Source: an uncultured delta proteobacterium
Lineage (GTDB): Bacteria > RBG-13-61-14 > DRUE01
Assembly (NCBI GenBank): GCA_903930515.1
Contig: CAIYYW010000378.1
Location: 1 to 11,132 of the forward strand
Direction of reading: 5' to 3'
DNA length: 11,132 bases
Every line of letters begins with the position of its first letter. Within the stretch, counting starts at the first letter, position 1. The notes beneath the pieces were generated by a model. It was not told the DNA's origin. It was given only the letters and a program-made list of their open reading frames with translations, and did no database searches. A program made the position numbers and the translations under genes. Shown here piece after piece: positions 6,926-9,831 of the stretch.

Positions 6926-8014
6926 TCACACCCAGTTGGCCTTGATCGCGTCGAATTCCGGAACCTTGATGTCCTCAATGGTGATCATTCGCGGATCTGC
7001 TTGGCCGATCCCAAGCTCTGCGGCCCGATAGACCTGGACCTGATCCCACACGCTTTTATTCACATACGGCAGTTTAACCTTATTTTCCGAGCCATATCTC
7101 TTGAGCACGGCCAAGGCCATGGAATCGCAAGCCACCCGGTCTTTACCCGCGATGATCAAGCCGGACGGAACCCAGATGCCTCTAGCGGAAATCCCGTCCG
7201 GTCCGCCTTTAACCATAATGCTGGTCGCGTCCACAATGTTGATCAGGGGATTCACGCTCAGGTTCAACTCCGCTATCTTCTCCCCGATATTATTCTGATG
7301 CAGGCCGTTTACTCCTTCCTGCCAGCGGTCCTCCGGATGGCAAACCCCCACGAACGCTTTCAAGCAACAAGTGAACTCGGCCCGGGTGGACTGATGGTTC
7401 TTGAGCATCGGCACATTTATGAAATGATCAACCTCGGTCAATATCTTCGGAATCCGGAAACCGTTGCTCCAGTATCGTTGTTTAGGCTCAAACCGGACAT
7501 ACTCGCTTTTAAGCCAGGGGTAAAACTCCACTCCCTCTTCTTGACATACTCGCGGTATGCCGCTTTCAGCGAATGACTTATCATCCATTAAAGCCGGTCG
7601 GTCTCCTACCATCGGATGCGCCCCCCGTTCCTTGACCAGCCGGATCACGGCCCGGATCACTTCCGGGTTGGTGGTAATCCTTTGAGTCGGGTTCAAGGAC
7701 GGCCCGGTGACATTGGGCTTGATCATCACCCGCTGGCCCTTCTCAATCTCGGCCAGTCCGCCTGCGGCTAAAACCGCCTCCCGCAAAGTCTTCTCAAGGG
7801 AATCCCCAACACCGCTGATGCTTACCAGGGCCCTGGGCATCGCCGGATATACCCGGGTGGGCGGCAACGGCTCCGGCCCGGGATCAAGCAAGAGCTTGAT
7901 AGCTTTTTTCGGACTGGTGCAGCCCGGACTGACCCCAGCCGCGACCGCGCCAAAGCCGATCGCTTTGATAAATTTCCGGCGATTATATTTTTGACTCTTC
8001 CTGTTACTTTCCAT
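6926..8014 (-). CDS. Tat-exported DUF362 family protein
   Basis: The 362-aa protein starts with a twin-arginine signal: NRRKFIK (11-17), then a weakly hydrophobic Gly/Ala run and SPGC with Cys32. The cysteine may be a lipid anchor, but the bases before it are not an ideal lipobox. The DUF362 domain fills the rest: VMIKPNVTGP, TTNPEVIRAVIRLVKERGAHPMVGD, HFINVPMLKNHQSTRAEFTCCLKAFVG given in part, and DRVACDSMALAVL near the end. DUF362 proteins often carry ferredoxin clusters; no CxxCxxC pattern is seen here, so this is the cluster-free form. The biochemical role of the family is unsettled. Tat export suggests that it folds before export, perhaps with a cofactor. The start is supported by AGGAG (8020-8024), 5 bases upstream. 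It is convergent with the ligase, with 61 bases between them. Confidence 0.85.
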   Translation of the reverse strand: MESNRKSQKYNRRKFIKAIGFGAVAAGVSPGCTSPKKAIKLLLDPGPEPLPPTRVYPAMPRALVSISGVGDSLEKTLREAVLAAGGLAEIEKGQRVMIKPNVTGPSLNPTQRITTNPEVIRAVIRLVKERGAHPMVGDRPALMDDKSFAESGIPRVCQEEGVEFYPWLKSEYVRFEPKQRYWSNGFRIPKILTEVDHFINVPMLKNHQSTRAEFTCCLKAFVGVCHPEDRWQEGVNGLHQNNIGEKIAELNLSVNPLINIVDATSIMVKGGPDGISARGIWVPSGLIIAGKDRVACDSMALAVLKRYGSENKVKLPYVNKSVWDQVQVYRAAELGIGQADPRMITIEDIKVPEFDAIKANWV

Positions 8015-8362: not shown

Positions 8363-9817
8363 TTACATGCGGCCGGTCCAGCAGAAAGTGCAAACGCGCT
8401 CAGCCGGCAAACCGATCGCTGAAATGGTTTGCTGAGTCGTGAGGTAAATTATACGCTTAACGACTTCAACTTCAGTCTCTTTGTTGACATCTCTCCTGAT
8501 CCATTCGACCATTTCTTGGTATTGGTCACTTCCGGGATTGAGATAAGGAGCGATATCTATATCGTCCGTGTCTTTTCCTTCGATCGCCGCCATGGCTCTC
8601 CTGGCCGCCAGTTCATCACGTTTTTTGGTAGATTCTTCAAAGGGGCAGATTTCAATCAGGGGAGCGCAGGCAAGGCCTAAAGTGACCTCTTCGGGACGGC
8701 AACGGCTGATTTTCTTAATCAGCCAGCGGAGCTGGGTATTTCTCACCAGGGAATCGTCAAGCAACAAGAAACGCTTTCCCGAAATCACGGAGCGTATGGT
8801 ATTGATCTTGTGGAACGCCGCGAAATCCCTCATGTTTTGGTCGCTGTACATGTAGCTGCGAATACCGCGTTTTTTGCGAAGAGGCCTGAGCAAGGGAACT
8901 CCCGAAGCGTGTGCTGCTCCATGCGCGTGCCCCAGTCCTGAATCGGGAATTCCCGCAATGAAGTCAATTTGGTTGAACAGATCCAACTGTTTAAAATTTT
9001 GCCACAAGGCAGCACCGGTTCGGTCGCGCGTATCTTCCACGCAAATGCCCTGAATAATGGCTTCAGGATAAGCCGTGTAGACATAGAGAAAACCGCAAAT
9101 CTTGCCGGAGTCATTTCCCGGCAAAAGAGTCTTCGGACCATTGGCGTCGAGATAAACGATTTCACCGGCTTTCAGCTCCCTGAGTATTTCATAATCAAGG
9201 TTATCAAGGCCGGTTGTCTCGGTGACAACCGCGAAAGCGCCTTCTTTTACGCCAAGGCTCAGGCTGAATGTCCCACGAGGGTCTCTGGCCGCGTAAATGC
9301 CCTCTGAGTTCATAAGCAAGATGTTGATGGACCCGAACCCGGCAATCATGGCCCAGACTTTTTTTATGCCGTCGGCAAAATCAGTTCCTTTGCTGATTAT
9401 TTCACCGACGACTTCGGCCTTGTTGTAATTCCAGGTTTCCATTTTTTCATCCAAGGTTTTTTCCCTGAAATTACTGCCTTGTTTCTTTAAATCGTCGCCG
9501 ATTTTTTGAAGGTTGTTGAAATTGCCCTGAACAACAATGCTGAAGCTCCCGATACAGGTATCAAACTTGAGAGGCTGGATATCGGATGAGCTGGTAATCC
9601 CGATACCGATATTGCCGGGCAAGTTGCCTAGGAGGTCGCCGAACCTTGGTAAAAAGGGAATGTCGTGGATGCGATGGATCTCCTTGTACAGAGCTTTATC
9701 GTGATGGGTAAATATTCCTCCGATTGCTTGGCCAAGATGGTCATGGTCGCCAAGCAGGTTGTAAAGGTCATTGATGCATTTCTCTTTGACTGAAAAAACT
9801 CCCGCCAAACCGCTCAT
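8363..9817 (-). CDS. PurF-like amidophosphoribosyltransferase, glutaminase degenerate
   Basis: The 484-aa protein follows the PurF layout: an N-terminal class II glutamine amidotransferase domain (about 1-235) and a phosphoribosyltransferase domain (about 240-484). PurF makes phosphoribosylamine from PRPP and glutamine, the first step of purine synthesis. The PRPP loop LLLDDSLVRNTQ (351-362), AGIPDSG (288-294) and four likely [4Fe-4S] ligands are kept: Cys241, Cys391, Cys476 and Cys479 (CTFC). In the first domain the catalytic Cys of the MCGI start is Ser2 (MSGLAGVF), HRGQ reads HLGQ, and the Arg and Asn substrate contacts are missing. Glutamine use is therefore unlikely; free ammonia, another substrate or a regulatory role is possible. 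ATG at 9817 is chosen over TTG at 9838 because AGGAGG (9826-9831) lies 8 bases before it and inside the longer frame. No purine gene adjoins it. Confidence 0.85.
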   Translation of the reverse strand: MSGLAGVFSVKEKCINDLYNLLGDHDHLGQAIGGIFTHHDKALYKEIHRIHDIPFLPRFGDLLGNLPGNIGIGITSSSDIQPLKFDTCIGSFSIVVQGNFNNLQKIGDDLKKQGSNFREKTLDEKMETWNYNKAEVVGEIISKGTDFADGIKKVWAMIAGFGSINILLMNSEGIYAARDPRGTFSLSLGVKEGAFAVVTETTGLDNLDYEILRELKAGEIVYLDANGPKTLLPGNDSGKICGFLYVYTAYPEAIIQGICVEDTRDRTGAALWQNFKQLDLFNQIDFIAGIPDSGLGHAHGAAHASGVPLLRPLRKKRGIRSYMYSDQNMRDFAAFHKINTIRSVISGKRFLLLDDSLVRNTQLRWLIKKISRCRPEEVTLGLACAPLIEICPFEESTKKRDELAARRAMAAIEGKDTDDIDIAPYLNPGSDQYQEMVEWIRRDVNKETEVEVVKRIIYLTTQQTISAIGLPAERVCTFCWTGRM

Positions 9818-9825
9818 TCCCGATA

Positions 9826-9831
9826 CCTCCT
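9826..9831 (-). promoter_or_regulatory. Ribosome binding site deciding the PurF-like start
   Basis: AGGAGG on the minus strand, 8 bases before the ATG at 9817. An upstream in-frame TTG at 9838 would place this site inside the coding region, so the ATG is preferred and the protein begins Met-Ser-Gly. Confidence 0.75.

Follow-up and report, generated by a model that had tools for sequence, protein, structure and literature searches.

F2, a widespread family of PurF paralogues without the glutaminase cysteine, and its putative divergent member in a delta proteobacterial genome

By textbook knowledge, PurF catalyses the first and committed step of purine synthesis and depends on glutamine to do so. 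According to work cited in a survey of archaea (PMC3261824), E. coli PurF keeps an ammonia-dependent activity when Cys1 is exchanged for Ser or Ala, and the chemistry therefore needs no glutaminase. An ammonia-dependent activity was also proposed for crenarchaeal PurF' (Biol Direct 2011;6:63, PMC3261824), and this archaeal survey was all that was found on the subject, the literature searched containing no characterised Cys-less PurF.

In the present study a PurF-like gene of an uncultured delta proteobacterium (contig CAIYYW010000378.1) was analyzed together with a family of Cys-less PurF paralogues, here named F2. The term window refers to the whole stretch of 11,132 nucleotides that was examined. 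F2 resembles crenarchaeal PurF' (PMC3261824) as a second PurF-like gene without the nucleophile Cys and near purine genes; it differs in that many PurF' carry Ala or Val at the Cys position, a comparison drawn from the literature.

The window gene, its fold and its glutaminase site

The PurF-like gene occupies positions 8363 to 9817 on the minus strand, running from an ATG at 9817 to a stop at 8363 with 484 codons before the stop, and a Shine-Dalgarno-like AGGAGG is situated 5' of the ATG at 9826 to 9831 (minus strand). At the same composition an open frame of 484 codons would be expected by chance with a probability of about 2e-11, and the gene is real and of full length. Its neighbours encode a DUF362 protein, an acyl-CoA ligase and a sodium/solute symporter; neither the window ORFs nor a profile search revealed adjoining purine genes, and no structural RNA or tRNA was found in the window.

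Compared with the PurF profile TIGR01134, the protein gave a near full-length match of 132 bits (E 3e-38), which is below the curated cut-off of 350 bits, and B. subtilis PurF (PDB 1ao0) was matched with an E of 3e-33. An AlphaFold2 model, for which family sequences served as input, displayed the PurF fold with a mean pLDDT of 92.9, its best structure matches being the PurF entries 6lbp, 1gph and 1ao0 with a TM of about 0.8 (0.80-0.81 for 1gph and 1ao0). With PurF of the B. subtilis type (TIGR01134), which carries a [4Fe-4S] cluster, the window protein shares the predicted Ntn plus type I phosphoribosyltransferase fold, as well as the four Fe-S cysteines, PDSG and most residues of the PRPP loop, but it is without the nucleophile Cys, the Arg loop, HNG and SDTE and shows RNTQ instead of RGTT.

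Residues were compared in an alignment of the window protein with 100 homologues, namely 17 canonical PurFs and 83 Cys-less relatives. A previous sequence-only reading had stated that the catalytic Cys is replaced by Ser and that the Arg and Asn holding glutamine are missing, and both statements were confirmed. Translation and alignment place Ser2 (9812 to 9814, minus strand) at the nucleophile Cys; the loop bearing the Arg (RYxTxG), a residue present in 100% of the canonical PurFs, is deleted, HN of the HNG motif became VQ, and in addition the Asp of the SDTE motif became Lys133. With the Arg, Asn-Gly and Asp of PurF as glutamine-binding residues, which we take to be established family knowledge, the glutaminase site of the window protein is, judged by its residues, dead.

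The same holds for the aligned F2 sequences, all of which have the Arg loop deleted and have lost HNG, with position 2 being Ser in 47 of 83, Gly in 36 of 83 and Cys in none. It had been proposed to check by a tree whether Ser2 marks a conserved clade; instead, Ser and Gly alternate, having been exchanged at least four times along the tree. Since it swaps with Gly across F2, Ser2 is no conserved nucleophile or otherwise functional residue, and Ser as an alternative Ntn nucleophile is unlikely for the same reason. A sequencing error at the Cys codon was ruled out, because Ser or Gly as well as the loss of the remaining glutamine residues are common to the whole family. Likewise, a propeptide concealing a Cys upstream of the ATG at 9817 was rejected: the seven in-frame residues in question (MDQEVSG) contain no Cys, and the AGGAGG suits this ATG.

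The F2 family and the position of the window protein

Scanning of GTDB contigs yielded at least 580 confirmed relatives, and the 80 best were retained. Essentially all of these best 80 of at least 580 begin with [MV]-[SG]-G and possess a TDYHSHLGT-like motif, which in the N-domain occupies the place of the LQHRGQ segment of PurF, as well as a [DE]DSIVRGTQ loop. F2 retains the fold of PurF and the Fe-S cysteines, and the phosphoribosyltransferase site is mostly kept as well, with an invariant RGTQ replacing RGTT. Hosts belong to Omnitrophota, Clostridia, Bacteroidota, Syntrophaceae, Planctomycetota, Lokiarchaea and others, and within the small phylum to which genome G037 belongs the distribution is patchy. 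As far as aligned residues tell, the family, which spans bacterial and archaeal phyla, lost its glutaminase long ago, and the earlier view that the window gene does not reflect simple decay was upheld on this account. In NCBIfam the sole match of F2 is purF, below its cut-off; the family is widespread but little noticed.

The window protein almost certainly belongs to F2, as suggested by several comparisons. End to end, its identity amounts to 36-42% with F2 versus 25-28% with PurF, and it keeps 72 of the 94 columns invariant in F2. The split between PurF and F2 received an SH-aLRT value of 100, and the window protein fell on the side of F2, a placement to which the program attached a long-branch caution. 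Common to F2 and the window protein are the Met-Ser/Gly-Gly start, the lost glutaminase, the Fe-S cysteines and RxTQL; differences lie in Asn360 in place of Gly, a shortened flexible loop, and GDHDHLGQ in place of the TDYHSHLGT motif. Because it departs from both TDYHSHLGT and [DE]DSIVRGTQ, which are very common traits of F2 though not proven to define it, the window protein can at most count as a divergent member.

It also has the longest branch, with 2.4 changes per site in the tree of PurF and F2 and 3.9 in the tree without PurF, and owing to this branch its place inside F2 is unsure. Close orthologues were found neither in GTDB contigs, where identity reached 40-42% at best among the best 80 of at least 580 relatives, nor in the two other genomes of its phylum or in viral contigs. 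The window copy is an odd, fast-evolving one.

F2 in purine operons and as the only PurF homologue

Within 6 kb of F2, a purine gene or carB is present at 20 of 80 loci (best 80 of at least 580 relatives). These amount to 45 purine or carB genes versus about two expected in a rough count, and PurF itself occurs at 12 loci. Omnitrophota provide an example with the order purB-purL-(purQ)-F2-purM-purD-purE, and in a genome of the order of the host an ordinary F2 adjoins purB.

PurF above the cut-off is also found in 32 of 40 F2 genomes, so that F2 is usually not the sole source of phosphoribosylamine. This co-occurrence, in which both genes are sometimes neighbours in one operon (e.g., genome G200), is compatible with a regulatory role in which F2, including the window copy, is impaired in catalysis and controls PurF by joining it in mixed oligomers. 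In the window copy the fold persists while the active site is changed, and precedents exist in trypanosomatids, where dead paralogues activate AdoMetDC or deoxyhypusine synthase (PMC5201418, PMC3663545). Nevertheless, such a regulatory partnership is considered unlikely, and F2 also exists without PurF in genomes with PurD and PurM, where there would be no partner to regulate.

Among Clostridia drawn at a completeness of at least 95%, F2 was detected in 15 of 59 genomes, six of which (6/15) possess no other PurF homologue. In these six no TIGR01134 match above the cut-off was found, and PurD and PurM are present in all of them. Of genomes drawn at a completeness of at least 99%, five of 34 with F2 have F2 only, the check for PurD and PurM covering just the six Clostridia. 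Completeness here means the value requested in the genome filter, and the probability that the numbers of F2-only genomes result from missing sequence is about 5e-5 for the Clostridia at 95% or more and about 2e-5 for the set at 99% or more. In two of the six F2-only Clostridia genomes, a purine operon with the order purE-F2-purM-purN-purO-like-purH-purD-purL carries F2 at the purF position; one was annotated gene by gene and the other read by similarity. F2 looks functional at the family level and, in some genomes, seems to substitute for PurF.

As F2 is the sole PurF-like gene in some anaerobes, it probably starts purine synthesis there without glutamine. PurD consumes phosphoribosylamine, and therefore F2 is a natural candidate for its synthesis in F2-only genomes. 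Using PRPP and ammonia, either free or supplied by a separate source, the enzyme would produce phosphoribosylamine, and de novo purine synthesis could thereby start without glutamine. Judged from genome context, an ammonia-dependent PRPP aminotransferase is held, with slightly better than even confidence, to be what the family encodes; the Gln of F2 at the position of the last PRPP-loop Thr of PurF speaks against it. If this is true, some anaerobic organisms use ammonia for the first step of purine synthesis. The label ‘amidophosphoribosyltransferase’ on F2 genes implies an activity with glutamine for which the sequence offers no basis.

Some further arrangements were observed. In the Clostridia purine operons at L121 (3717-14331) and L122 (3541-14001), where F2 holds the purF position and the rest of the genome contains no canonical PurF, a PurO-like IMP cyclohydrolase gene stands beside that of a PurH-type AICAR formyltransferase. 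At L123 (2393-9721), in an F2-only Clostridia genome, F2 ends a pyrimidine cluster of carB-like, pyrF-like, pyrE-like and pyrB-like genes, which were read by eye without a profile, and carB lies beside or near F2 at six other loci. F2 adjoins PurF at four loci of Lokiarchaea (L044, L052, L090, L105), in three of which the two genes are on opposite strands and face each other.

PRPP site, Fe-S cysteines and status of the window copy

The four PurF-type Fe-S cysteines had been described as retained, and indeed all of them are present in the window protein and invariant in all aligned homologues. By alignment the predicted ligands are Cys241 (9095 to 9097), Cys391 (8645 to 8647) and the CxxC of Cys476 and Cys479 (8381 to 8392), all on the minus strand. 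The PRPP loop, which had been regarded as intact, proved to be altered. Comprising residues 354-362 (8732 to 8758, minus strand), it reads DDSLVRNTQ in the window protein, DDSIVRGTT in canonical PurF and [DE]DSIVRGTQ in F2, and Asn360 (8738-8740, minus strand) replaces a Gly that all 100 aligned homologues share. Furthermore, T, G and A take the place of the conserved H, R and P at positions 379, 381 and 385, and the flexible loop is two residues short. Of the 42 columns invariant in PurF and F2 alike, 37 are kept, those lost being P185, S253, G360, P385 and L456. A PROSITE-like PRPP pattern fails on all F2 owing to TQ and was for this reason not counted as evidence.

For a Gly of positive phi, Asn is the commonest substitute and probably the mildest, and the PRPP loop of the window copy may for this reason still form. 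The exchange would leave catalysis reduced or lost, and the PRPP chemistry of the window copy itself is doubtful as judged from these substitutions. If catalysis was lost, the remaining Fe-S PurF fold might bind a ligand or serve as a partner. In F2 that replace PurF, the PRPP-loop Gly, TDYHSH, the YTP segment of the flexible loop and H/R/P are kept, whereas the window copy has lost all of them, which argues against an ammonia-dependent reaction in its case; that it retains this family function seems rather improbable. The earlier proposal of a working enzyme that uses a new amino donor can be maintained in part: it is well supported for the family, where F2 replaces PurF in some genomes, and weakly for the window member with its lost PRPP-site residues. 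A combined scenario, in which F2 took over from PurF as a glutamine-independent phosphoribosylamine synthase in several lineages of anaerobes and the window copy later left PRPP aminotransfer for a new Fe-S-dependent role in ligand binding, is decidedly unlikely.

Still less probable is that the window protein serves as a sensor of PRPP or nucleotides, or couples PRPP to an acceptor other than ammonia. The largely kept PRPP loop and Fe-S site would suit such a role, as would a conserved N-domain motif of the family's own, TDYHSHLGT in the place of LQHRGQ; however, this motif is degraded in the window copy, a regulatory domain is absent, and the gene context outside purines is inconsistent.

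The presence of a normal purF in the genome, raised earlier as a point to be checked, was verified: the host possesses a canonical purF (L001) with all motifs, located behind purB and purC. This PurF would carry the main flux. Because of its presence in the host genome, the window copy, whose branch is very long, is most likely a redundant, fast-evolving F2 outside any purine cluster.

Whether it is moreover enzymatically dead, a drifting or recently acquired redundant gene heading for loss, is a tentative proposition and on the whole unlikely. The branch of 2.4-3.9 would be in accordance with it, as would the lost residues invariant in PurF and F2 (P185, S253, G360, P385), the canonical PurF in the genome, the lack of adjoining purine genes, and the fact that F2 was not found in the sole other genome of the genus (87% complete). 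The GC3 of 0.56, versus 0.67-0.78 in the neighbours and 0.73 in the host's own purF and purine genes, points in the same direction and hints at foreign origin or a different constraint. However, the 484-codon frame is intact and preceded by a good ribosome site, the four Fe-S cysteines and 37 of 42 doubly invariant columns are kept, the fold model is confident, and an unconstrained frame at such divergence would have accumulated stops.

Downstream of the PurF-like gene and on the same strand, the DUF362 protein encoded at 6926-8014 of the window shows a twin-arginine- or lipoprotein-like leader (RRKFIKAIGFGAVAAGVSPGC).
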